From: Cochliopodium minus
Lineage: Eukaryota > Discosea > Himatismenida > Cochliopodiidae
NCBI GenBank assembly: GCA_024220525.1
Contig: JAMYWO010000004.1
Coordinates: 206,401-226,946, forward strand
Direction of reading: 5' to 3'
Length of the DNA: 20,546 bases
Part shown: in pieces, positions 1,253 to 20,420 of the stretch
Layout of the letters: each line of letters begins with the position of its first letter
How positions within the stretch are numbered: the first letter of the stretch is position 1
The notes under the pieces: model-generated
What the model was told of the DNA's origin: nothing
The model's input: only the letters and a program-made list of their open reading frames with translations
Databases searched by the model: none
Program-made: the position numbers and the translations under genes

Positions 1253-4200
1253 ATGACTTCGAACATCAAAACCATCATAGTATTAAATGATGAAGAGAAT
1301 TTAGAAACATCACAAAATATAATAGGAAAGATAGAACATTCACTAGAATCTTTATGGATAAATTACAATTCGATAGATGAAGGGATGACACCATTGGATA
1401 AGAGAAGGAAATCAGTTGGGGTATCATCTATCATCCCAAAGGATCCAATAGCACCAAAAACTTTACTGAACGATATGATAGGAACGATGCCAAATAAGCA
1501 TAGGGATATAGGAATCTTATACTTTGATGAGATATTGGAATCAAAATCATCTCAATATAAATTCCCACTCAAAATTTTGGAATGCCTAAGATTTTCGATT
1601 GAATGTGAAAATAATCTATGCATCACCACATTGGGTGATGGATCATTCATACTCGATGATATCAAGGATGATAACAGGAGATTGGATATCATAGTGAAGA
1701 AAATCTTCTCCTATTCTCCCTTCTCTGTTTCTGCTTCATACACATCCACACATACACGATCATTCAACGAGATAGGATTGTATGTGACAAATGGATTGAA
1801 AAAGCCACAAATGACAAAGTTGGAGGATCTCTCCTACTACATGTACGATGATGAAGAAAAATTGATAACTAATATAAGAGAAAAGGTGAAAGAGCATGAA
1901 GATTCCAATTCATGGATGAATCTATTGACCTTTAAGATCATAAAAGAAGAGGATTCATTGCCATTCTATATCTACCTTCCGCACATTCTTCTGACAGGAA
2001 AAACGATGGAGATATTGGAAGATTGGATAGAAGGAATGTTGAACAATAATTTCATCGAGAACATCCTTGATATGTTCTATCAGAACTGCATGTCGATCTT
2101 CATCGCATCAATAGACAGCACCATCCACAATATAGAAGAAACATCATTGTTATTATCTATCTGCAGCAGAATGAATGTAATCACCACAAAGTATCCATCC
2201 AACAGAAGCATCCTAAACATTTCTAAGATTGAAAAGATGAAAAAAGTAAATGAAAAAGAAGAGCCTAATGAAATCCAAGAAGTAGAAGAGCAAGAAGAAG
2301 AATTGGAAGAGGTACTTGAAGAAATTATGGAAGAAGAGGAGGTTCTGGAGAATAATAACAATCAAAACATTGATTTAGAAATCGTGCAAATCACCAAAGA
2401 ATCTTCTGACGAGAACATGGTGATTCAAATGGATGTGACACCAAACAATCTTGAAGAAATTCAATATTTCGAGAAAGATTCACCTATTGAGAACATCCTC
2501 CCAAAAGAGAACGAAAGTATGGAAAACAAGGAAGAGATTTTGGAAGAGAACAATAAACAAGAAGAGGATATGGAAGATGATGTACCATCTAAAAGCAACA
2601 GAACATACGCAACTGAGAAAACATTCCAACAAGATGAAGAGGAGAGTGATGAAGATAGAGATTCAGATTTCCATTTCACTTCTTCAAGAATTGACAAAAC
2701 AATTTCGTACGGAAAAAACAGACTTTCTGTTATCCCAGTTTCCAGTTTCCATTGGCTGGAAGACGACGAAGAAGAGCTAGACGATCAATTCGAAGAAGAA
2801 AGAGAAAACCACAGGGAACAAATGGAGGCTTTGGAAAACAAATATAAGAAATTAACGGAAAATCTCGTCATATGTTTGAATAAGAGGGATATGGAATACT
2901 CAAAGCTTCAAAGAGAAGTGGAACAAAACAAAAAGAAGGAATTCCAAAGAGTTCTAGAGAAAAAAATTTTGATGGCCAGAGTAAAGTCACACGACAAGAG
3001 AAAATCTCTGCACATAGCAAAACTCAAACTTTTCAATTCAATAAGCCAACTTTCTGATCACGAAAACCAAGTGGATATTGCTTTGTTGCGTGCAAAATCA
3101 ACTCAGTTGGAACAGGAAGGAAATTTCCTCGAAGATGATATCTCCTCCCTTAAGAAACAGCTTGATGAAGCAACCAAGTCTCTTTCAAAATGCAAAAAGT
3201 CACTCGAAAGCAAACAAGAACAAATCTCAAAGTTGGAAGATCAACTCAACGTTCAACTTGAAGAACAAAAAGATCTCAAGAAAAAATCAAACGAAGCAGC
3301 CGAGAAAAAAGGGCAGGTGGAGATATTGAAGGAGCAGTTGCAATCCAAAGAGAGGGAAGTGAAAGAAACCAAGAAGAAACTCAAATCATTGAAGCTCAAT
3401 CTGCAAAAGGGAAGTGATGATCTCGAGAACCAAGTTTCCCTCCTCCAAAAGAACATCGATCAAAAGGATAACATGATCATGAACGATCAAAAGAAGAGGA
3501 TCGAAAAAGAAAAGGAGCTGGAGGATCTTCAAAAAAAGTTTGAGCAGCTGAAGAAAAGCCAGAATGTGATCACTGAGAAAAGAAAGTCGATTGTGCAGCA
3601 AGCAGAAAGAAGGATCTCTTTGATCGAAGATATCTTGCCTCCCAAAACAAGATCCAAGAGCAAAGATACTTTTCTTGTGATTGTGGAAGAAAATAATACA
3701 AAGGAGAGGATAGAAATGGAAGAAAAGAATGAGGATAAAGATGAAGATGAAAATAAAAATAAAAAAAAAATTGAAGAGATGCCAAAAAACGTAGGAAGGC
3801 CAAAAAAAATAGATAAACAAAAAGAAGAGGATGAAGAGAAGATAACTGAAGAAAAAAAACAAAAAGATGTGAGCAAGAAGAGAGGCAGACCAAGAAAAGA
3901 AGAAACAAGCACAACCAAACCCAAAAACAAGAAGGATATCTCGCTAGATGAGAAAGACATGGTCGAAGATAAAAAAAGCAACAAAAAGACCAAGATATCT
4001 GAAACCAAATCCAAAGCATCAACCACGATAGATCTGACTGAAGACAGTCCCAAGAAAACATCCTCATCAACTACCAACAAGAAAATAACTACCACTAAAA
4101 AAAAAGAGGAAGAAACACCAAAGACAAAGCCAAAGGAAGTAGAACCACCAAAGAGAAGAGGAAGGTCTAAAAACTTTGAAGAGAAAGAGGCAGACGAGGA

Positions 4201-4804
4201 AGAAGAGGAAGAGATACCAAAGCCAAAGGAAGTAGAACCGCCAAAGAGAAGAGGAAGGCCAAAGAAAGTAGAAAAGGCGACAGAGACACCTAAACCTAAA
4301 GCTAAAGCGAAATCCAAAGCAAAAGCCAAGACAGCAAAGAAAAACCAAAAAAAGATTGATGAGGAAGAAATGGAAGAAGTGGAAGAGAAATTGACTGAAA
4401 AAAAGGTTGTACAAAAAGAGAAAGAAAAAGAAAAAGAGAAAGAAAAGTCGAAAAAGAGTTTAACAAAAGCAACAGAAAAAGAAGACAAAACAAGCGATAC
4501 AAATAAGAAGAGAAAGAATGCATCTACATCGAAAGAAACAAGCAGCAAATCTGATACAGAAGAATCACCCAACAAGAAAAAGAAAAATTCCGAACATCCT
4601 CCAAAGAAAACCACACCAAAAACATTGAGCGATATCACCAATACTGTCGAAAACAAAGAGACCAAAGAAGCTCCTGCAAAGAAAATCACCAAGCCGCTTT
4701 TCGGCGTGATGAAGAATGTGGGAAAATTCTCGGGAAGCTCCATCTTGCAAGGAACTCTTTTTGCTAATAGCATCAAGATTCCCAAGTTGAAAGGAGACAA
4801 ATGA
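1253..4804 (+). CDS. Kinesin-like protein with degenerate motor, coiled coil and AT-hook tail
   Basis: A single uninterrupted exon of 1183 aa. Residues 5-312 follow the order of a kinesin motor domain: a beta-1-like strand (5-11), YFDEIL (90-95) where FDxVF is expected, NNLCITTLGDGSFILDD (120-136) in the P-loop position, FNEIGLYV (171-178) in the 'YNExVxDLL' position, DSNSWMNLLTFKI (217-229) in the switch I position, and a C-terminal IASIDSTIHNIEETSLLLSI stretch (284-303), close to the motor's 'SPSxxNxxETLSTL' helix. The GQTGSGKT, SSRSH and DLAGSE motifs are all lost, so ATP hydrolysis is unlikely. Acidic low-complexity segments follow (about 330-500), then a coiled coil (about 515-800) and a basic/acidic tail with four AT-hook-type cores (near 846, 876, 967, 997). 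These suggest chromatin or nuclear binding. The C-terminal 35 residues are compact and not recognised. The kinesin relationship is my inference from motif order, not from a search. Confidence 0.68.
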   Translation: MTSNIKTIIVLNDEENLETSQNIIGKIEHSLESLWINYNSIDEGMTPLDKRRKSVGVSSIIPKDPIAPKTLLNDMIGTMPNKHRDIGILYFDEILESKSSQYKFPLKILECLRFSIECENNLCITTLGDGSFILDDIKDDNRRLDIIVKKIFSYSPFSVSASYTSTHTRSFNEIGLYVTNGLKKPQMTKLEDLSYYMYDDEEKLITNIREKVKEHEDSNSWMNLLTFKIIKEEDSLPFYIYLPHILLTGKTMEILEDWIEGMLNNNFIENILDMFYQNCMSIFIASIDSTIHNIEETSLLLSICSRMNVITTKYPSNRSILNISKIEKMKKVNEKEEPNEIQEVEEQEEELEEVLEEIMEEEEVLENNNNQNIDLEIVQITKESSDENMVIQMDVTPNNLEEIQYFEKDSPIENILPKENESMENKEEILEENNKQEEDMEDDVPSKSNRTYATEKTFQQDEEESDEDRDSDFHFTSSRIDKTISYGKNRLSVIPVSSFHWLEDDEEELDDQFEEERENHREQMEALENKYKKLTENLVICLNKRDMEYSKLQREVEQNKKKEFQRVLEKKILMARVKSHDKRKSLHIAKLKLFNSISQLSDHENQVDIALLRAKSTQLEQEGNFLEDDISSLKKQLDEATKSLSKCKKSLESKQEQISKLEDQLNVQLEEQKDLKKKSNEAAEKKGQVEILKEQLQSKEREVKETKKKLKSLKLNLQKGSDDLENQVSLLQKNIDQKDNMIMNDQKKRIEKEKELEDLQKKFEQLKKSQNVITEKRKSIVQQAERRISLIEDILPPKTRSKSKDTFLVIVEENNTKERIEMEEKNEDKDEDENKNKKKIEEMPKNVGRPKKIDKQKEEDEEKITEEKKQKDVSKKRGRPRKEETSTTKPKNKKDISLDEKDMVEDKKSNKKTKISETKSKASTTIDLTEDSPKKTSSSTTNKKITTTKKKEEETPKTKPKEVEPPKRRGRSKNFEEKEADEEEEEEIPKPKEVEPPKRRGRPKKVEKATETPKPKAKAKSKAKAKTAKKNQKKIDEEEMEEVEEKLTEKKVVQKEKEKEKEKEKSKKSLTKATEKEDKTSDTNKKRKNASTSKETSSKSDTEESPNKKKKNSEHPPKKTTPKTLSDITNTVENKETKEAPAKKITKPLFGVMKNVGKFSGSSILQGTLFANSIKIPKLKGDK
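4126..4258 (+). repeat. Internal direct repeat encoding AT-hook cassette
   Basis: Positions 4126-4165 and 4219-4258 are a 40-bp direct repeat, 93 bp (31 codons) apart and in frame, with one visible mismatch. Each unit encodes KPKEVEPPKRRGR, an AT-hook core preceded by an acidic/proline leader. Glu-rich sequence separates the copies. The near identity of both copies indicates a recent in-frame duplication within the tail of the kinesin-like gene. Confidence 0.8.
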
Positions 4805-6054: not shown

Positions 6055-9000
6055 ATGTCAAAATGGATTCCTTTTGATGCAAATGGGATCAGTAATTTTT
6101 ATTATAATATATCCTTTTTATTTTTCAAATACTTATTTTTGAATATAGTCATATATGTATTCGATAATAGCACCCCAACAATAGAAAATGAAATGAGATT
6201 TGATTTGGGAACTAAAGTGATAATCACAGAAAAATATGGAGACACATGGTTGAAAGGATATCCTTTATTGGGGCCATTTCAACTTAAAAATAAAATGTAT
6301 ATCAACCCAAAATAATTGAATTATATAATGATCCTTTATCATATTTTGATCTATATAAAATTATAATTTTATATCACAAATATATTCTTTCAAATTCGAC
6401 TTATGGGAATTTTATATAGAGGAATATTTCCATCAGTATGTGTACAATTAGAAAGCGAATTGACTGTTGATCCATTGGTCAGTGATCTTGCGCAATCATT
6501 GAAAGATTTTGGAGATTTATACAAGATATTGATGAAGAAAGGAGATTTAGATAAAGCTGATAGTTTGATAGAGACAATATCTCCAGTATTATCACAATAT
6601 CATAAAATGAACAATAGTGGGCTGAATAATCTGGCAAAAGAGAAAATGAGAGATAAATTATCTATCAAAATAGCTAAAACAAAAATGTCATATGGAACAG
6701 ATGTTTATGTCACAAATGAATCAGGACAAATAGCCAATCATAAAAACACACCAATCATAAATATTTTCACCAAATATCAGGATATCATCTCTGATAAAGA
6801 TAATCAGCCCCAACCACAGGAAACAGCAAAAACATCCTCTCCCATTTTGAGTGGAAATTCCTCTCCCAATCCAAAATTGGTCAATACAAGTCTCAGAAAG
6901 ATATCTACCACATCTCTCGCATCCTCATCCAATCTCACCTCTCTGATGTCCACTCCCCTTTCGAGAACATCAAGCATATCCAACCTCAAGAATGTGGAAT
7001 CTGATAAATATATCAACATCTATCTCGATTTCAAGAACATCATCTGTCCTGTTGGTGATCCCACCACCCTCTACTTTTCTCTCTACGATTCTACCAAAAA
7101 GTTTTTTCTTTCGGAAGATTTCAAAATCGATTTGAATGCAAGTGGTATGCCACTAGACATCAAGCTCGTTGGAAATTCTAAAGTCATTTTTAGAGTAAAA
7201 TCATCTTATTTTTAATCTATTAATTTTCTTTATTTACAAATTTTTTGAACAGAATTTCGATCAAAGGGAAGTTACCAGAGACTTGGTGATAGTTTGCAGA
7301 GTTGTAAGATATGGTGACTTGAAAACCGACTACAAATTGAGTAGCGGGAATAAAAAGAAAAAGTCTGCAGAGTACAGAAGACTTGTCGGTGTTTCTCTGA
7401 TTAGACTTTCCTTGAATAAAAGCACGGAAACAGAGCAACAAACATCAATATACACATCAGTTAATACTAAAAAAGAAGAGGAGTCTTGGTTAAAAATACT
7501 CGAAAGTAAAAAATTTTTTTTTTTTTTTTGGTTTTTTTTTAACTTTTTTAAAAGATATTATTTCGAACAACGAAAAGGAAATATCTGTAGTTCCTAATTC
7601 CACAGGTTTATTCACTTCCACACAAATTTTCAACAGTAATGTTGACGAAATTATTTTGGAGAAGAAGTTGTCGGAACCACCGATCATCCAAAGAACCCAA
7701 TACAAAGACAAAAAGATCAAGCGTAACGACTTTTATGTCACATTGAGCTCATTAGAGTTAGAAAACAACAAAGCCACAAAAATCGAAGTGAGTGCTGTTG
7801 TCATGGACAAAAATGGGAACCCACACAAGAACGCAATCTGTGTTGGACAAGGAGAAAAGTACATCCCTGAATATATTTCCACTGTCTATCACTCTCCTAG
7901 TCCTGTATTAGAAGAAACTTTTTGTATACGTGTTCCTTCTGAAGAATTGAGCGGTTTACACATTCTCTTCACCATAAAAGCAGTTTCATCCAAAGAGAAC
8001 AAATGTAAAGTACATTCTTATGCTGTGTTCAAGTTGTTGGGAGAAAGTGGAGCTATCATCAGCGACAACTTGCATCCTATAAAGCAATTCAGAATGGCCA
8101 AGGGGAAAGAGCCCAAGGCTTTGGCTTATCTAAACCAAGAAAATGTTACTCCAGTCACTGGACTCTTTAAGATCAAAACAATTTTGGCATCCAATCAATT
8201 AACATCAGTTGGTAAAATCTGATTTTTAAATTCATTTTTGTTTCAACTTTTTTTTTATAAATTTAGATGCTGTACATAGAATTTTCAACTGGAAGGCATT
8301 GACTGCCAACAAAGATCCAAAAACCATCACAGGGCTGTTGGACAGAATCAGTTATGTAGATAAACAAGAGGTGGGAAAGTTTTTCAACCAGATCATGGGC
8401 TGCGTCATGTCTTTGCTTGATCTCCTGCCTTATCCCTCCGAGGAAGATGATGTGAACGGGGACATTTGTGTAAATCATAGAACTGCTGCAGGTACCGTCA
8501 TTGGTATCTTAGAAACGCTTTTGGACGAAAAGTTGGGAAACAGATTTTTTGAAAGCTACCAAGAATTCCTCACTATATATTGTAAAACAGTTTCTGCTCA
8601 CCACCACTTCTTAAAGTTGTTTCATTACTACATTGACAACATTAATCCGAAGAACCTGAAGACTCTGACCTCCTGCTTCAAGTCCTTCCAGAATTTGCTC
8701 TTGCTCATGAAGGTTTCCAGTTGCAACAACAAAGAGAACCCTGAAGATTTTTGCAAAGAGTTGAACAGCTTACTCACCAAATTTAATTCTTTTTGCCAAC
8801 TTACTGACTCAAGCCTTTTTGCTTCTCAAGTGGCCATATTAAAGGTAAGATTTTTTTATTTTTTTTTAAATCAATCTTTTTTATTTCTTTTTTCTATCAA
8901 AGTGTATTCCTAGTTGGGTGGATAATTTAATGAATATATATACCCTCAAGGAAGTCAGTAACTGGGTGATCAATCTCATCTTGTCAAGTTCTTATTCTGA

Positions 9001-12000
9001 GGAGAAAAAGCAAAAGAACATTGAAAAACTAAACATCATACAAGTGCTTCTCAATTCCAGCCCTGATTCTCCAACTTACTTTTTGTTCAGAAACAAAGAA
9101 AGCTTGTCCATTACACTCAACCCTCTTTTGGGACATTTGGGTATTTATTTCAGTGCAAAGAATGTAGAAGAAATCTCAAAGACAATCGAAATCTTGTTTT
9201 TTATTTTTGACCAGAAACTCACTTCTGAAGGAGAATACCACTTGCTCCATTTATGCAATCACTTTGCAGACTCTTTCCGCTCATTGGAAGAGAACGAGAA
9301 ACTCAAAGATCAGTTAATTCTTTTGTGGGGTATTGTGTTAGAGCAAACATCTTTGGAATCTTTGAAAAAGCACGTTTCTAACTTGTCGATTAGTGAACAA
9401 AATGTAATCACTTTAAAAATTTTCAAAAACTTATAAAAATTTATTTTTTTTTACAGAGATTCTTCAAATCTAATTTCGAAATGTTTGAAGTAATGGATGT
9501 CAAAGGCTTCCCTAAAGCTTTTGTGACTTTGAGAATGTGGATCTTCACAGTCGCAGTCGATTTCTGCAAGAATTCTAGCATCATTTTGAACGAGTTAGAG
9601 TGGAACGAAGAGAGATCCAGTGTGCACGTCAAACTCATTGAAGTAGTCAAAATTTTCTTGGAATCAGAAACTCTCAACCTTGAAAAGATGCAGCCAAAGA
9701 AGAAGGAGTCCATCACTTCGATGTACGGTGACCTCCGTGTGCCTCTCACCAATACATTCATGGAACACGTGCAGACCCTTAGAAAATTTGTTGAGGGTAT
9801 CGACTTTTTGTTCGTCCCCGAAAACAAAATGTTCTCCACTTTGTTCTGCATCATGTTGAGACAAGAGAACAAGGAGCAGTGCTTGGAGATTTACTTCTGT
9901 CTTCTCGACGATGAGTATACCAAATCCCAATCCTTCCAGAAGATCGAGGCCGTGAGTATGGACGCCTTTGGCTCCATCACAAACGAAGGAGGATTCAACG
10001 AGCTCGTCTCTTTCTTCTTCTCTCAATTGAAGGAGAAGCTCAAAAACCTAAAGGCTCCCGAGACTGAAAAGAACGGCTTTGTCACTGGTTTAGAGGAGCT
10101 CTTGCAACTCTCCAAGCAGCTCAACACTTTGCCAAATGACATTCTCTATGAAGACGAACGTTGCACTGCCATGTTGAAGTTAATGGCTTTTTTGAAGAGA
10201 ACTGACAAGATGGCAACCTACTATCGTTATCTCCAGAACTTGTCCAAGGTTCAAGAAGACTTCCAAAACTATGCTGAAGCAGGAAATTGTTTGCGTGATT
10301 ATGCCCAACATTTACCATGGAGTAAGATATTATATCATTTTTGTTGATTTTTAAAATTTTCTTTTCATTTTTAATTTTATTCATAAATTTTAATAGAATT
10401 ACATATTTGTTCATTAATTCATTTTAATCTGTTTTTTTTATCAGTCAAAAATAAATTTTTTTTTAAGAATTTTAAATTGATTTTTAATTGTGACAATAAA
10501 TAGGTGACACCAATAAAGAGAAAAGCTTAACTTCTGCAATCAACCTGTTCGAAAAGGCAGGTTGCTACGAAGACGGTATCGAGATCTACAAACAACTCCA
10601 GAACTATTATCTCAATGAAAACATCAATCTCGTGAGAATCTCCTCCCTCTTCTTCTCTGAATCCAAGTTTGTCGAAAAAATAATGGTTGCAGAGAGATAT
10701 AAGATCTCGCATTTCAGAGTTGCTTACTACGGAACTGGCTTTTCTTCTTCTATTAGAGGGGAGCACATTTACAGAGGAAATGCGTAAAAAAGAATTTTTT
10801 TTTTATTTTAATTTGTAAATTTTTCATTTTTAATCAAATGATGACTATTTTATTTGATCAAATCTTATTTTTCATTCATTTCAAATTATTTATTATTGTT
10901 GATTTATTTATAGGTTGCAACAAGTCAATGAGTTCGCAGAACAATTAAAGCGTAAATTTCCACAAGCAGAGTTTTTGCAATACACCAGTCCTCCTCCGAT
11001 TGAGGTGATCAATTCAGAGGACAAAATGTACATCCAACTCTTCCAAGTACGTCCTTCCTACAACGAGGAGCTCGAAGGTAATTTTTTATCAATTTTAATT
11101 TTTTTTTTTTTAAAGAGAATATAAATTTTTTTGTTTAACATTTTTTCTAGGTCTTCCACGTAGCCCAGACTTTTACAAGAAGCCTGAAAGGGTCAGATTT
11201 TTTGACGAGAACAACCACTTGTCCATCTTCACTTACAAACAGCCCTTCAAAAAGACCAAAACTGACAACGAGTTCCGTGATTTGTGGACTCGTCAATACT
11301 TGTACAAAACAGAAGATGTCATGCCATCCATCATTAGAAGGTAAAAAAAAATTAATTAAAATTATAATAAATTTTTTTCATTTTATTTTAAACCCTAATA
11401 AAGATTGTCCATTTTTTTATTTTTAATTCTAATTTTTGTTATATTTTTTATTTTTTATTATAATTTTTATTTTTATTTTATTTTATTTTTTTTTTATTAA
11501 AAAAAGGTCAAAAATAGTGAGCATCATAGTTAGAGAAGTCTCACCCATTGAAAACGCAGTTGAGTCCATGGTCAGCAAGAACAGGGAGTTAGAAGACATG
11601 ATCCTCAAGTACGCTGCTAAAAAGCCTCCTTCTGACGTCAATCCCTTCACTCAAGCCATCCAAGGTGTAGTTCAGGTAAAAAAGAAAGAAAAAGATTTTT
11701 TATTAAATTCGTTTAAAATTCGTTTGAATTAAAATTTTAAACTTTTTTTATTCATCTAGGCTTTTGTTAACGGAGGTACCAAACAATATGAAAATGTGTT
11801 TTTTCCTCTGGAATATCTCAATGACTACCCAGAACACTCTACTTTTGTCCAACAACTCAAACACCTCCTCAACGAGCAAGACGACATTCTGGAGCGTTCT
11901 TTGAAGGTTTATCAGTTGGTTTGCCCTAAGGAGTTCGAGCCTTTACGTCTTTCTTTTGAGGAGACTTTCGAGAAGATGCAAAAGGAAAAGCAAGAGAAGC

Positions 12001-12076: not shown

Positions 12077-15000
12077 ATGGGTAACTCATTAAGTTCATCA
12101 AATAACAAATATTATTGCAATCAATGCAACCAATTCTTTGATGACAGAGAATTATTGGAGCATGAACATATAAGAAAAATCTCAAATTTGAGATCATTCT
12201 TGGATATAGATTTAAATTTAGAGACAAGTAATAGAATTTCAACTTATGATTTGATAAAAAGAATCAAAATGGGCAAAGAAATAAAATTCAGGGAGTATAT
12301 CTATATTGCCAGAAATTTTCCATCACATATTGAGGATTTCAAAAGAGGTAATACTTCAATAATTATAGTCATTTTTTGATATAATTAGGTTATAATATTG
12401 ATCATTTTTAACAAATTCATTTTTTAGAACTTTATGATAAGAAAAATGGTTACAAGACACTCATTTCGTTGATAACTTCAATGTTGGAAGGAGAAAGTGA
12501 AAATGCAATCAAAAAAACATTCAAGGAAGTCAATCATTTTTGCCCTCCTCCTAAAAACATAATGGAAAGAGAAAAGTTTATTTCCCAAATTGAAGATACT
12601 TTCACTCTGAGGTTAGACATTTTTGAAAATGATCCAAAAAGCCCCGAGAGATTAAAATTTCCTGTGATACACAATTCACCTGGATATGGAAAAGTATTAA
12701 CATATTTGTTTAAAGATTATTTTTGAATTATTTTTTTTTTAAAATAATGAAAATTTTGTAGTCAACAATTTGTTCACAAATGGTTTCTGCTTATTTAAAT
12801 GAGAATAAATGTGCAATATCGGTCACTTTCAATGATCAAATGAACATAGATAAAAGTGAAGAGTTTACTCTTCTCCGCAAATATGAGGGAAAGACTTTGA
12901 AAAAAATAAAGGAAGCAGTTAATTCTCAAGACCCCAATTCAGACAAAGTGATCATTCAGTTAAAATCTCAATTTTTTGAAAAATATGATTGTATTTTTAG
13001 AACACATTTAATAACCAGAATATTTGCAAGGTAAACATTAATTTTCTCATTTATTTAAAAATTATAATTTTTTTTCATTGATAAGCTATTTCTTTGAATT
13101 AAAATTTAATTTCAAAGAAATTTCTCAAAAGCTTGAGTATCTCATCCCCTCTGTTAAAACAGATAGTTGCATTTTTGATACTTTCGACCTATTGTCTTTT
13201 CATTGGAAAACTTTAAATAAAAAATTAAAGTTGATAGCTGGAAGACTTCCTATTTTGGTAACTATAGATGAATCTCAAAGGTTTAAATAACATTTTTTTT
13301 TTTCGTTTAAACAATGAATAACAAACTTCAAATATACTATTACAAAAATTTTATTTAAAGTTAAAAGTTAATTAACTTTTTTTTTTTGCTGAAAGACTGG
13401 GACACTTTTATACCAAAAAATTGGTTGAAAATTTGTCAGAAACTAGGACTTGCAACGAAAATTTTCTTTTGTTGCCTCTCTTTGTAACTCTCGACTACTC
13501 ACTTTTCTTGATTAAAACTAATGACATTGTTGAATCTCCACCCAACCTTGAATGGATTTTACTTGAACCCCTCTCTTACATTTCTTCCCTAAATATTGCA
13601 AAGATACACGGAGTGGACACTGATAATCATTTATACAAGTTGTTGGTTCAACATTGCATGGGACATCCCAGAAATTTACACGAGCTCTTGGTTTTTATAA
13701 TGAATCATTCTTCTAAAATACAACATGACTCATCATCTCTCATCAATTTTTCACAGTTTATAAAAGCTTTTAAAACAAAAAACAAAAAAAGAAAAGAGCT
13801 GATGGAATCTAGGATGGAAGGTGAGGAAGGAAACAAAATCCTTTTGAGTATAATCAAAAAATGTGAAGATCTTGGGAAGAAAATTCAAACAGAAGAACAA
13901 CAACAAAGGAAAAAGAAAGAAATTACTGGAATAGAGGAAAGTTTTGTTATTACAATGAATGAAGAACAAATCAAAAGTTTTCTCAATTTTACCGAAGAAG
14001 AAATGCTGATGGAATTATCTTTCCAAAAATACTCTTTCCCCGAGAAAAACTTTCAAATCCACTCGATTGAAGAATACAAATTTTTTGCAAATAAAATGAA
14101 TTTTGAGGTGCAATCTTCTCCTCACTTTCTTCAAGCACTGCTCAATCTCCCTATGAAAATTAGATTCCCCATCAATAACATTGACAAAGATAAGTTTATG
14201 AATCCATTGTCACCTCTTTATCTTTTGCTCAACGGAATTTTTCACTTGACAGAAAGACCAAAGGATCCTTCTTATTGGAAAAGAAAAGATTTCGAATCTA
14301 CTTTCAAAGTTTCTCCTCTTTATGTTTTCAACTATTGTCTTTATAGAAATCCACCCAATAATATTGAGAAGAAGTTGATAGATTTTCTCGGGCAGTTTTT
14401 AGAGTTTCAGTTGAAGGAAGATGTTGAAGATTTTGCGAGAACAGTGGAGCTCTTAGTCGGAGTTTTTTGGGCTTTTAAATTGACAACTTGCAGTCTCTTC
14501 AATCCTCAATCTCCTTATTATTCTTTTTACAAAACTCCCTCTCTTACTTCTCCGAAACTAAACAATCCCAAGATGGTTACTCTTTGTGAATTGTTGGGGG
14601 ACTATGAAATTATTGATGGAGAAATGAATCTATCTTTTTTTCAATCAGAATGGAAATTTACTGTAGAAAAAAAAGATCACATTTTTGTTGAAAATGAAAT
14701 TTATTCTCCTGAAGATAATACCGAACCAGCAGTTGATTTGATTGCTTGTGCAAGAAGGGATGACGGAGAATTAATCTACTTTTTGATGGACACTACTTTA
14801 GGTGATCAAAATATTTTGAAGCATATTTCCAATATAAACTATTACCAATCAAAAGAGCCAAATGTGACATTTCAGTCGAAAGTTGTTGAAAAATACTCAA
14901 AACTTAAAAATTGGTTAAAAGGAAAAGTAGAACTTACAAACAAAAATACCTACTTCATTCTCTTTTCAGGTCAAACGCTCGGACAAAAATACAATTATTC

Positions 15001-15241
15001 TGATATTGTTGCCGGCTTTTATAATGTTAATGATCTTTCAAAGTTTTTTGGAGTTTTTTATCCTTTTTTTGTTACGCAATACAAACTGAATGATGAAAAC
15101 TGTTGTCATTGTCAAAACAAGATCTTAAAGGTATATAGATGTTACAAAAATTGCAACAAACCTCTACATTGCTCAGGGAAATGTCTTAATACTCACTACA
15201 TGAAAGTCCATAATTCTGCCATTCACATTAATTTTATTTAA
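12077..15241 (+). CDS. Crinkler/RHS-like P-loop NTPase with zinc fingers and possible nuclease-fold domain
   Basis: Five exons (12077-12347, 12428-12693, 12762-13030, 13086-13280, 13396-15241) encode 948 aa. The start MGNSLSSS fits an N-myristoylation signal (Gly2, Ser6). A C2H2-like finger follows (CNQC..H.H, about 15-31). The NTPase module has Walker A NSPGYGKST (173-181, Lys179; the first Gly is Asn), Walker B ILVTIDES (Asp330-Glu331) and a C-terminal MGHPRNL block (422-428), like the 'GGhPR' element of Crinkler/RHS-type NTPases. A Lys/Glu-rich helix follows, then a region with PAVDLIA (Asp781) and LIYFLMDTT (Asp799) that could be the core of a divergent restriction-endonuclease fold. The C-terminus is MYND-like: Cys903, 906, 916, 920, 926, 930, His934, His939. 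Such proteins derive from transposon-linked ATPase-nucleases and occur as effectors or in intragenomic conflict; the role here is unknown. No secretion signal is seen. Confidence 0.7.
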
Positions 15242-15469: not shown

Positions 15470-16263
15470 ATGAAAACCGAGATTAAGATTAATATAATAG
15501 GCAGCAAAAGTGTGAGCACATCAGCATTAATAATCCCTTTTTTAAAAGGGATTTCGTACCATTATAAGTAATTAAAATCGATTATAAAAATTTGATTCAA
15601 ATTAATAATTTACCAAGTGATCTAGCAATAGAGGATGATTATCTCAAAATAGTGGTGGATGGGATAAAACTGGAACTCGAAATTCTTTTTACTGCAGGAA
15701 ATGAGCAATTCACAGGGATGAGAGATCTATACATGAAGAATGGGGACGGATTCATTTTGGCATTCAATTTAAATTCAAAATCAACTTTCAATGATTTGGA
15801 TGATATAAGAGAACAATTGACAAGAGTGAGAGATACAGATGATATACCAATGATTTTGGTTGGATTTTATTCTGGGGAAATAGAGATTTGCTTTGAAGAA
15901 ATAAATGAGAAGGTCAAAAAGTGGGGATGCTCCTTCATGGTGGTTGATATTGAAAAAAAAATCAATGTTGATGAATGCTTTGTCAACATTGTTAGGCAGG
16001 TAGGAAAAATAAAAAAGTTGAGAACAAAAGATCCATTCGTAGATACAGAGTTGTTTGTTGAGCTTGAGAATAATCCCACCATAAACTCTATTGACAAACT
16101 CAAGAGTATTGAAATAAATGGTAAGGACGGTTTTGGGAGAACTCCTCTGATGGTTGCTATCGACAAAAACGTTGCGGACGAAATATTAGAGCATCTACTT
16201 GCGCTCAAAGCAAATCCCAATCTCAACAACTTTTTTGGAGAAAATTCATTCCATGTGTTGTTT
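15470..16263 (+). CDS. Ras-like pseudoGTPase with ankyrin repeats, copy 1 (truncated at the N)
   Basis: Exons 15470-15567 and 15618-16263, with a 50-bp intron, give 248 codons before the undetermined base. The fold follows Ras: KINIIGSKSVSTSA in the P-loop place, DLAIEDDYLKIVVDG after switch I, LFTAGNEQF at switch II, MRDLYMKNGDGFILAFNLNS, then ILVGFYSGE where 'VGNKxD' belongs. The P-loop Lys (Ras Lys16) is Thr, the DxxG Asp is Phe, the NKxD motif is gone and the SAK loop is VDI, so normal GTP binding is unlikely. No CAAX box follows; instead ankyrin repeats begin at NGKDGFGRTPLMVAI and stop at FHVLF. The ATG at 15470 is chosen because it alone supplies the Ras beta-1/P-loop. After the N the frame meets TGA within four codons, in sequence belonging to the opposite strand. 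The real 3' part is missing. Confidence 0.75.
15568..15617 (+). other. Conserved intron 1 of the Ras-like/ankyrin copy 1
   Basis: GTAATT...CCAAG, 50 bp. The position is identical to intron 1 of copy 2 on the other strand (18139-18077): each follows an exon 1 of exactly 98 nt and is phase 2, interrupting the segment between helix 1 and switch I. The intron sequences themselves are different. Shared position with diverged sequence shows that the pair descends from one spliced ancestor, not from a retrocopy. Confidence 0.65.
15742..16263 (+). repeat. Left arm of a large inverted repeat (Ras-like/ankyrin copy 1)
   Basis: This 522-bp block is nearly identical, in inverted orientation, to 17392-17952. 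Identity includes an exact run of close to 60 bp around 15755-15815 and extends to the last base before the N. The other arm is 39 bp longer, because of a 13-codon Lys-rich insertion in copy 2. The arms are separated by about 1.1 kb. Confidence 0.85.
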
Positions 16264-16264
16264 N
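16264..16264. other. Undetermined base (N) at a head-on junction of two genes
   Basis: The only N in the window. To its left, sequence codes on the plus strand for copy 1 up to a full codon. To its right, sequence codes on the minus strand for copy 2, also up to a full codon. Neither protein has reached a natural end, and neither reading frame makes sense past this base. This is most simply an assembly join or one-base gap placeholder between two fragments, less likely a real inversion breakpoint. Confidence 0.8.
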
Positions 16265-18237
16265 GCACAATTTGAAGAATGGTGTTTCTGAACTTCTGTT
16301 TCTCATATTGATATCTCCTTCTTTCTTGATGAACAAACCAACAATATCCATAAATAGCTGTTCATGTTTTATATACTCGTTGGATGCAATAAAATGGAAA
16401 GGAGTATCATCATTTGAATTTTTTTTGTTGATATCTGCAGAAAAATCCAACAAAGATTTTACAACTTTCAAATCGGGAGGTTCTATTAGAGAAGCAAAAT
16501 GTAAACAAAAGTTTTCATTGAGAAGATTAGCACTTAAACCATTTTGTAGTAAGAAAACAACTTGTTCAACATTACTTCCCTTGATAGCACCAATAATTCC
16601 ACCCTCAACATCAAGTAATTCATCTTTTTCAATACAATCTACAACTTCATTAGAATTATTCTTCTCTCTTAATCTAGACAAGATTGTATTTCCACTCTTT
16701 GTGGAAGAACTTGCATTAGATTTATTTGTTAAGAAAGAAATGATTTCATTTGAACTATGTTCACAAGCAACAAGAAATGGAGTTTTTCCGTTTAAATCTT
16801 TGATATTTAAATCTGCCTTGTATTCAACTAATTTCTCCACGTATTTCAATTCCAAATTTTTTCTTTCAAGTAAATAATGAAAAGGTGTTTTATCATCTAC
16901 CAAAGAATTAGTTGAAGCTCCACTTTCCAAAAGATAACTCTTATTTTAAATGAAAAAAAAAAATTAATTATCAAAAAAAAAAAATTGGAAAAAGAATCAG
17001 GATGAAAGAAAATTTTTGAAGTGATTATTTTGAAAAGGATATTGAGTTGATGGATTATTTCAAGAATAATTTTCAAAATCATCGTCAAATATCTAATCAA
17101 ATATAATTAATATATTCACCTATTCACAGATAATAAACATATTGAAAGAATAAAATTTACAATCATCTCCAAATCAGATTTTGGATTTTGACACAAACAA
17201 TGAAGACCTTTAAAACACCCAGAGTTTAAGTTGGCTTTGTTTACAATAAAAACTTGGAGATACTTCAAAGATATATTCGGACTCAAACAGGCATAACAAA
17301 AACAAGATTTTCCCTCTGTATCTTCTGTGTTAGGATCTGCATTCGATTTGAAAAAAGATTCGATTAATTTTAAGTTTTCTTTCTCTTTTTTAAACAACAC
17401 ATGGAATGAATTTTCTCCAAAAAAGTTATTGAGATTGGGATTTGCTTTGAGCGCAAGTAGATGCTCTATTATTTCTTCCTCAACGTTGTTGTCGATAGCA
17501 ACCATCAGAGGAGTTCTCCCAAAACCATCCTTCCCATTAATTTGAAAATACTTGAGTTTGTCAATAGAGTTTATGTTGGGATTATTCTCAAGCTCAACAA
17601 ACAACTCTGTATCTAGGAATGGATCTTTTGTTCTCAACTTTTTAATTTTTCCTACCTGCCTAACAATATTGACAAAGCATTCATCAACATTGATCCCATT
17701 TTTCAAATCAACCACCATGAAGGAGCATCCCCACTTTTTGACCTTCTCGTTTATCTCTTCAAAGCTAATCTCTATTTCCCCAGAATAAAATCCAACCAAA
17801 GTAATGGGAATGTCGTTGATATCTTTTTTTTTCTTCGATTTCATTGATATATTTTTTGTATCTCTCCCTCTTGTCAATTGATCTCTTATATCATCCAAAT
17901 CATTGAAAGTTGATTTTGAATTTAAATTGAATGCCAAAATAAATCCGTCGCCATCCTTAAACTTTTTGTCTTTCATAGAAGAGCTGTGCTCTGTTTTAAT
18001 ATCTAAAATATCAATTGTGAAATTCATCCCATCCACTTCGATGTTTTTGCGATAATAATTATCCATTGTTGGATCTCTGGTATTAAAAAAAATTACAGCC
18101 CAAAATTATTAAAAGAATCCAAATAAAAAAATTAAATACATTTTGTCAACAAATCTCCCTTTTACGAACATAACTGTTAATTCTGACTTGCTGACACCTT
18201 CACCACTTGAAACAATAATCTTGATTCTTTTCTTCAT
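16265..18237 (-). CDS. Ras-like pseudoGTPase with ankyrin repeats, copy 2 (3' end cut at the N)
   Basis: Exons 18237-18140, 18076-17161 and 16939-16265 give 563 codons without a stop. Residues 1-178 follow Ras: KIIVSSGEGVSKSELT as P-loop, FVDK|IDPTMDNYYRKNIEVDG through switch I (completed across intron 1), then LDIKTEHSSSM in place of 'LDTAGQEEYSAM', and VGFYSGE in place of 'VGNKxD'. The P-loop Lys and Ser remain, but its flanking Gly is Ser. The DxxG Gly and both base-recognition motifs are lost. A 13-residue Lys-rich insertion (around 107-119) is absent from copy 1. From residue 213 ankyrin repeats run to the gap, for example GRTPLMVAIDNN, KTPFHYLLERKN, GKTPFLVACEHSS and DTPFHFIASN. For intron 2 I prefer the donor at 17160, because DLEMI|SYLLESGAS then restores an uninterrupted ankyrin helix. 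The likely role is a non-hydrolysing binding scaffold. Confidence 0.8.
17392..17952 (-). repeat. Right arm of the inverted repeat (Ras-like/ankyrin copy 2)
   Basis: The reverse complement of this block matches 15742-16263, from the GDGF codons through FHVLF. Most differences are single bases, plus one 39-bp in-frame insertion near 17835. Upstream of the arm the two genes are barely alignable at DNA level although the protein fold is shared. Confidence 0.85.
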
Positions 18238-18470: not shown

Positions 18471-20420
18471 TCAAATGTTGATGGCATCATTGTCAGTAAT
18501 TTGGCTGGGAAGAAATTGATGGACAGTCATGAGATGATGCTTCATTTCTTCCATATAAAAAAAAAAAAATTAATAAAACAAAAAAAAATGTGGAATGAAA
18601 AAAGTAAACCTTTTCTTTTGAAATTTCCATTACAATGAGAGCAAAGACAAGATCTGTTTCCACAATAATCCATGTGATCAAACTTCTCCTTTTCGACGAT
18701 TTTCAAGCTGCAATAAAAGCACTTGGAAAGTTTCATGTCGCAATACTTGCTTTTGTGCTTCTTCAAATTGAATCTTTCCAAGTTCTTCATGCCACAATCA
18801 GAACAAGAAGTGAAAGAGTGGTACAAATCATGATGTTTGTCCTTCGAGTCAATGGGGATGATGATGTCGCACTTTTCGCAGTAGAAGTTCCTTTTCTTGC
18901 ATTGGATCTCGTGAAGAGAAAAAGAAGGGAGCGGCACAAACTTTTTGCAATTCAAACAAAACTCGTTTTGAACGACATTCTCCGAGATGACGTTGTTTTG
19001 ATTCAAAACAGTTTGATGGCCTTTGTCTTTGGACAAAACTTTCTTAGCGGAGATTTTGTATTTACTGGAATGACCAGAGTAGCAGGTGATGCCAACGAAA
19101 ATGCGAGAAGGAGTTTGAAAATCAGAATAGGTGAACGTCAGCTCACTGTTCCCTTTTCTGTTATCGCAAAAATCATTGATGTCGATGCTTGGTTTAGACT
19201 CTGTAGAAGATATGTAAAGATCCAAATCCTTTTTTAATTAAATATAAAAAATAAGGAAAAATTAAATTTATTGTTTAAAATAAAAAATTGTTAAAATTAA
19301 ATATAAATTTTTACACTCTTTGGATCAGAAGGCTCAACAACAAGATTGATAGAAAATTCATCTTTCAGGAAACTCTCATACTCGTCCAACTTTTTCAAAT
19401 CAAAAACATAATAGCAAAACTCACCCTGAGAAAGAGAAGAAGCCAAAGAATTCTCCCCTCCGAGCTTGAGCTCAAGAAAGAGGAGGTCTTCTTGCAAGGG
19501 AGGAGCGAAATCAACTTTGAGATCAGTGTCGATGACGGAAGCGTAAGAGAGGGGTTCTCCCTTGCACTCTATCTTGTCCACTTCGAATTCCCACAGCTTC
19601 CCTTGCCCTTCCAAAATTATGGTGGTGTTGGACGTGATGCAAGGATAGTGAAGTGTGAGTGCATTTTCTGTAAAAATAATTTAACAATTAATAAAAAATA
19701 AAGATAATATTTGAAAAGTACAAAAAATTTAATTAAATACAAATAATGTTTTAAAAATTTTTAAAAATATAAATAACAAAAATATTTTAAAAATTTTTTA
19801 AATTTAAAAAAAAAAGATTTTTTTTTAACCAATTAAAGCTAGGGAGGTTGAAGTTGTCAAATCTTGAAATTGGTGTTGGTGAGGAACTAATCTTACATAA
19901 TCTGCTTTGATGAGTTTTATTGTTTCAAAGTTAACGAATTCTCCTTCATCGATACTCAAAGTTTTCATCATCCAGTAAGGCAGATAAGCACAGTCCTCAT
20001 TACCACTGAAGTCCTGATAAATAAAAAAAAAAAAACTTTGTTTAAATTTAAAAATAAAATAAAAATAAAAATTAATAAAATAAACAAAAAAAATATAAAG
20101 TAAAAATAAAAATAAATAATTTAAAATTAAGATAAAAAATAAAAAATAAAAAAAATGATCATCCAGAAACATAAAAAAAAAAATAAAAAAAAATTTTTAT
20201 TTGTTTTATGATTAACCAATACTGATGCAACTACACATTGTCCTTCCTTTTCTTTGTAAACCTTCATCATGATGGGCAAGTTCAGCCTGTTGTCGATAAA
20301 TGTCTGCAGCATTTTTTCGTGGAGGATGATTTTCGATCCCAAGTTCTTGACGTTCTCCTTTTCTAGAAGTGCATTGGAAAAACATTTCAAGGAGAAATTC
20401 ACGCTAGCTTCGTCATTCAT
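18471..20420 (-). CDS. UFD1-domain protein with PPC-like domain and C-terminal zinc fingers (PRLI-interacting factor K type)
   Basis: Exons 20420-20217, 20013-19830, 19667-19315, 19228-18610 and 18547-18471 encode 478 aa from the ATG at 20420. UFD1 is a Cdc48/p97 cofactor that helps deliver ubiquitylated substrates. The UFD1 fold is clear: GSKIILHEKML, then ASVLDFSGNEDCAYLPYWMM joined across intron 1, EGEFVNFETIKL, DYVRLVPH and the signature DTDLKVDFAPPLQ. The second part (about 185-310) reads DLDLYISS and RIFVGITCYSG..SKYKISA, like a bacterial pre-peptidase C-terminal (PPC) beta domain. Residues 338-463 hold a series of CxxC..H..C/H zinc fingers (Cys338/341, 364/367, 389/392, 417/420, 443/446). 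The acceptor at 18548 was chosen because it completes the last finger as KEMKHHLMTVHQ. A typical acceptor (TTTTTCAG) sits just before the ATG, so a 5' exon may lie outside the window. Confidence 0.85.

Follow-up and report, generated by a model that had tools for sequence, protein, structure and literature searches.

What remains of a small GTPase when most of its nucleotide-binding motifs are gone, and can the remainder still be a working part of a protein? The question is raised by two related genes found in a stretch of 20,546 nucleotides of contig JAMYWO010000004.1 of Cochliopodium minus (from here on, the window). Each of them codes for a Ras-superfamily domain that runs into ankyrin repeats. 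A preliminary description of this DNA had taken the two copies for Ras pseudoGTPases with complementary remaining motifs, which might have split functions or might pair with each other. We have analyzed both genes and slightly favour, over all other readings taken together, that they code for Rap-derived pseudoGTPases set on ankyrin arrays, proteins that would not go through guanine-nucleotide cycling and would serve as nucleotide-independent, Rap-shaped binding modules. The number of pseudoGTPases known by 2017 was small ("relatively few", in an excerpt of a work on the subject, PMC5593906).

Gene models

The window is eukaryotic, as indicated by the introns and by a DOCK-family gene, and its GC content calculated per 1 kb varies between 0.245 and 0.382. 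The two genes are spliced and lie on opposite strands, copy 1 on the forward strand (15470-16263) and copy 2 on the reverse strand (18237-16265). The splice sites of both were derived from the genomic sequence, without transcripts. The first exon of copy 1 (15470-15567, 98 nt) codes for beta-1, the P-loop and alpha-1, with GSKSVSTS replacing GxxxxGKS. It is followed by a putative GT..AG intron of 50 nt (15568-15617) and by exon 2 (15618-16263), which codes for the remaining Rap-type domain and the first ankyrin repeats and is cut by an N. For this intron there were seven frame-keeping GT-AG options, and the one given here was picked because its donor position matches that of copy 2, so that the equal length of exon 1 in both copies is partly a choice.

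Exon 1 of copy 2 (18140-18237, reverse strand, also 98 nt) has SGEGVSKS in place of GxxxxGKS. The predicted intron 1 (18077-18139, 63 nt, GT..AG) is the one of two frame-keeping options that preserves a Rap-like FVDK-DPT stretch. Exon 2 (17161-18076) codes for the remaining Rap-type domain, for a Lys-rich in-frame insertion of 13 residues after RDT, and for ankyrin repeats. This insertion, located at about 17818-17856 on the reverse strand with an exact position that depends on the alignment, is absent from copy 1 and from Rap1b. For intron 2 (16940-17160, 221 nt) we picked, among several options, the one that yields a gapless ankyrin repeat (DLEMI/SYLLESGAS). Exon 3 (16265-16939) adds more ankyrin repeats and stops at the same N, its C-terminus missing. 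With this predicted splicing the frames are open over 248 codons in copy 1 and 563 codons in copy 2. Searching the window by tblastn gave no third copy; besides copies 1 and 2 there was one further weak match, of ankyrin to ankyrin, with 22% identity.

Probable scaffold join and mosaic structure

The N at position 16264 is the sole ambiguous base of the window, and copy 1 and exon 3 of copy 2 halt at it in the middle of a repeat, coming from opposite sides. Scaffolders write a single n at joins of this kind, and position 16264 is probably such a scaffold join. Reading the frames across it, with the N taken as unknown, they end after 3 and 13 residues. A continuation of copy 1 to the right of the N, looked for by homology to copy 2, did not rise above shuffled sequence: the best stretches had 21 and 22 of 40 matches, and 20 shuffles gave values of 20 to 24. 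Since both genes are interrupted within the ankyrins at this point, neither has its C-terminus, and the convergent layout may be a product of scaffolding. The bodies of the two genes form an inverted repeat, with one arm at 15831-16263 (copy 1, forward strand) and the other at 17392-17824 (copy 2, reverse strand), which are 92% complementary to each other.

The similarity between the copies is far from uniform. Up to codon 74 (copy 1 numbering) 127 of 217 nucleotides are identical, and after it 487 of 524. The breakpoint, at 15739 in copy 1 (forward strand, after nucleotide 220 of the CDS), brought a log-likelihood gain of 58.5, a value that none of 500 shuffles reached (the best was 8.7). The synonymous divergence follows the same division, with a Ks of 0.97 in the head (residues 1-72) vs. 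0.155 in the body (residues 73-248), so that the contrast between both parts is one of age and not of selection alone. The pattern suggests two old and different heads on one body that was shared more recently. It would fit recombination or gene conversion, in which the copies exchanged sequence with each other or with a third family member not seen here; perhaps it came about by crossing between paralogues in the assembly graph.

This brings up how much of the arrangement was made by the assembly. We consider it rather likely that the inverted pair, and perhaps the mosaic of heads and bodies too, are assembly products, either because the N links contigs that come from different members of one gene family or because the graph crossed between paralogues where they are near-identical. 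The exact coincidence of the N with the ends of both genes and the early closing of the frames beyond it agree with this explanation, and so does the identity of 59 out of 60 nucleotides in codons 81-100, just past the breakpoint, where short-read graphs can cross. However, there are 37 differences between the bodies over 174 aligned codons, indicating that the copies are not one collapsed locus, and neither fusion extends across the N. The fusion proteins would stay real even if their arrangement is not, and an origin of this kind is compatible with the other readings, including that of Rap-derived pseudoGTPases on ankyrin arrays.

Identity of the domain

The PF00071 (Ras) profile is matched by the ORFs around exon 2 of both copies (E values of 8.5e-20 and 2.5e-12) and by spliced copy 2 (7.1e-20). 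To find the closest group, we compared the copies with PDB chains by phmmer, considering the best 60 matches per list. Rap1b was the top match of copy 1 (1.3e-40, 143 bits), with Rap2A at 116 and the best KRas at 108 bits, and also of copy 2 (5e-30, 108 bits), with Rap2A at 104.7 and the best KRas at 88. The same ranking was found for the head of copy 1 alone (Rap1b 60.6 vs. Rap2A 49.8 bits) and for the body alone, taken from copy 1 (69.7 vs. 52.5), and residues 57-76 of copy 1 are identical to Rap1b in 16 of 20 positions. The head of copy 2 gave Rap2A 58.3, Rap1b 55.0 and best KRas 53.4 bits, scores that make it ambiguous among the three. By G-domain homology, and with Rap as the best group among PDB chains, both copies fall in the Rap group of the Ras superfamily; as few protist GTPases are present in PDB, Rap-type stands here for the nearest solved structure and not for a placement in a tree. 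The superfamily assignment made before is therefore maintained, with Rap in place of generic Ras. The Roc profile scored 21.7 bits in copy 1, under its cut-off of 27.

Damage to the G motifs

A canonical small GTPase has its motifs G1 to G5 intact. When both copies were aligned to Rap1b, G1, G3, G4 and G5 were altered in both, and G2 was damaged in copy 1 and only partially in copy 2. At G1 the Rap1b sequence GSGGVGKS has become GSKSVSTS in copy 1, with Thr for Lys16. In copy 2 it is SGEGVSKS, where Lys16-Ser17 are retained and Ser has replaced the glycines 10 and 15. At G2 copy 1 has lost Thr35, which copy 2 retains, with Ile in the place of Tyr32. G3 is affected in different ways, copy 1 having lost Asp57 and retained Gly60 (and TAGNE), and copy 2 the reverse. 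G4 (NKCD) is replaced by F and a gap of three residues, identically in both copies, and G5 (SAK) is DIE in copy 1 and DLK in copy 2. The alignment thus bears out every individual motif call of the preliminary description: NKxD and SAK lost in both copies, TAGNE retained next to a Thr at the P-loop Lys in copy 1, and Lys-Ser retained together with the loss of the DxxG glycine in copy 2.

The complementarity that had been read into these motifs is another matter. Over residues 3-76 the Rap1 residue is kept by both copies in 18 positions, by copy 1 only in 21, by copy 2 only in 15 and by neither in 20. If retention were independent 17.4 shared positions would be expected, so the complementarity is not above chance, and we rejected it as a special pattern. 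Nothing except the fact that the copies differ supports the proposed split of functions or mutual pairing, the kept residues being distributed independently; the pattern is accounted for by two diverged heads whose common body was shared more recently. Nor was the loss clearly aimed at the pocket. Of the nucleotide-contact positions, copy 1 keeps 8 of 27 vs. 70 of 137 positions elsewhere (p=0.057), and copy 2 keeps 11 of 27 vs. 56 of 137 (p=1.0), so that contacts have not been lost significantly faster than the rest. A structure model of exon 2 of copy 2, with exon 2 of copy 1 as second row, had a mean pLDDT of 43.1 and was uninformative.

Judged by their sequences, both domains are pseudoGTPases according to the definition in the excerpt of PMC5593906, and they are candidates for its class (i).

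Fusion to ankyrin repeats

The translations and the PF00071 matches agree with the description given before that in both copies the domain continues directly after helix 5 into ankyrin repeats, with no CAAX box between them (the sequences end at the N at 16264, so that the true C-termini are missing). In spliced copy 2 the Ank_4 family was matched with an E value of 5.9e-25, and at E<=0.001 Pfam gave Ras and Ank families only, with no PH or ArfGAP domain. Also in the exon-2 ORFs of both copies, whose genes lack their C-termini, Ras and Ank families were alone above the Pfam cut-offs. COR was found by Pfam neither in these ORFs nor in spliced copy 2, so the Roc-COR combination is absent from what is covered here. 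Rap ends in a short tail with a CAAX box. Rap1 (Rap1A/Rap1B) is the best PDB match of the whole copies and differs from them in two respects: the copies have G1, G3, G4 and G5 damaged (and G2 in copy 1), and they carry ankyrin repeats where Rap has this tail.

The combination of a Ras-like domain with ankyrin repeats in one protein has precedents. It is found in AGAP/centaurin-gamma proteins (PMC5593906, PMC9818964), and the order in AGAP1-3 is GTPase-like domain, PH, ArfGAP and ankyrin, according to excerpts of the latter, which also mention several reports suggesting nucleotide binding by the GTPase-like domain (PMC9818964). The copies resemble AGAP1-3 in the N-terminal Ras-like domain and the C-terminal ankyrins, but have no detected PH or ArfGAP and the repeats come right after helix 5. 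In the Roco proteins LRRK1/2 a Ras-like Roc domain occurs along with ankyrin repeats, COR and kinase (PMC6337361, in part). There the order is reversed, and neither Roc-COR nor kinase was found in the copies. The architecture had been described as unfamiliar, and this holds in a narrower form: among the literature matches listed (titles and beginnings of abstracts, with partial coverage) there was no direct fusion of a Rap- or Ras-type pseudoGTPase to ankyrins without other domains.

Neither an ankyrin array nor Rap-like sequence is known from p190RhoGAP pG1/pG2, CENP-M and fungal dynein LIC. They are given as class (i) pseudoGTPases in the excerpt of PMC5593906, and share with our copies a GTPase fold recognized by homology and degraded G motifs. 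Measurements showed that pG1 does not bind nucleotide, and for pG2 the same was predicted (PMC5593906, same excerpt); for the two copies, in contrast to pG1, this is deduced.

Selection on the shared body

We have estimated Ka/Ks between the copies, a pairwise measure for which one constrained lineage and two are indistinguishable. The ratio was 0.37 for residues 73-248 (bootstrap 0.19-0.69), 0.26 for residues 73-165 (0.11-0.56) and 0.56 for the head (0.22-0.97). Residues 166-248, the ankyrin side of copy 1, gave 0.65 (0.21-3.22), which is compatible with neutrality. As a reference, the 37 base changes observed in residues 75-248 were placed at random in 2000 simulations. The number of changed codons was 19, compared with a neutral expectation of 27.3±2.4, and only 1 of 2000 simulations was as low; 331 of the 2000 had no stop codon. 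This pattern of substitutions shows purifying selection on the shared body and argues against a simple pseudogene.

It is unlikely that one or both copies are young pseudogenes, decaying duplicates of an intact Rap-ankyrin gene located elsewhere in the genome. Such decay would agree with the high divergence of both copies from Rap1, with the independent losses in their heads and with residues 166-248, which taken alone are compatible with neutrality. Against it are the frames that stay open along both copies, as spliced here, and the scarcity of amino acid changes. Besides, the loss of G4 is identical in both copies and hence older than the divergence of the selected body. The body would then have been under selection after the usual guanine recognition had been lost, which speaks for a working pseudoGTPase rather than for a pseudogene. 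The pseudoGTPase reading of the preliminary description is supported by these data, as the damage affects four of the five G motifs in both copies, and in copy 1 also the fifth (G2), over a shared part that appears to be selected.

Lys16, Ser17, Thr35 and Asp57 hold phosphate and Mg in Ras. A slightly less probable alternative than decay is that one or both domains, most likely that of copy 2, still bind nucleotide or Mg but do not cycle normally (class ii or iii), for which the presence of all four residues in copy 2 leaves room, but NKxD is gone in both copies and P-loop glycines 10 and 15 of copy 2 are Ser.

Proposed mode of action

If the copies are Rap-derived pseudoGTPases on ankyrin arrays, the domain would keep a Rap-like fold without guanine-nucleotide cycling. 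Its fixed Rap-shaped surface might bind the partners of Rap or compete for them, or could have an interface of its own, and the ankyrin repeats would hold a second partner. With no nucleotide switch the binding would be constitutive, and the protein might keep a Rap partner in place or titrate it. Regarding their origin, a duplication may have been followed by gene conversion or recombination that evened out the 3' body (C-lobe and ankyrins) but spared the effector-lobe heads, which are old and unlike each other and may give different partners. The heads differ in the region through which Rap meets its effectors, and for this reason the two proteins may not have the same partners.

More speculatively, and with little confidence, the two copies could belong to a protist family in which varied degenerate Rap effector-lobe heads sit on one homogenised pseudoGTPase C-lobe/ankyrin body. 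If this were true, switch surfaces freed from nucleotide would diversify as the partner-choosing heads of a shared scaffold. A Rap-derived pseudoGTPase joined directly to an ankyrin array, and present in two forms that are distinct chiefly in the P-loop/switch half, would be a natural test of which Rap surfaces count when nucleotide is not involved. For the present the significance is modest.

Relatives and neighbouring genes

The searches for relatives covered viral and prokaryotic collections and have little bearing on eukaryotes. Exon 2 of copy 1, the ankyrin exon of copy 2 and the exon-2 alignment of both copies had no confirmed relative in viral contigs. The same was found for exon 2 of copy 1 and the two-copy alignment in prokaryotic genome contigs, and for exon 2 of copy 2 in phages.

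Directly upstream of copy 1, on the forward strand, there is an ORF of 606 aa (13421-15241) with no Pfam match above cut-off, for which the scan of viral contigs gave no confirmed relative either; by eye, the Cys/His cluster at its C-terminus resembles MYND. Further upstream on the same strand is the DOCK-family gene, with introns, which spans 6403-10347 and probably extends beyond, and matches DOCK_N (2.4e-18), DOCK-C2 (2.3e-26) and, also above cut-off, TPR_DOCK. An ORF of 1183 aa (1253-4804, forward strand), without Pfam match, is acidic, then coiled-coil-like and then Lys-rich, with RGRP motifs that by eye resemble AT-hooks. On the other side of copy 2, the reverse strand at 18542-19614 gave weak matches to UFD1_N2 and to TRAF/XAF1-type zinc fingers, all below cut-off, and perhaps holds one UFD1-like zinc-finger gene.
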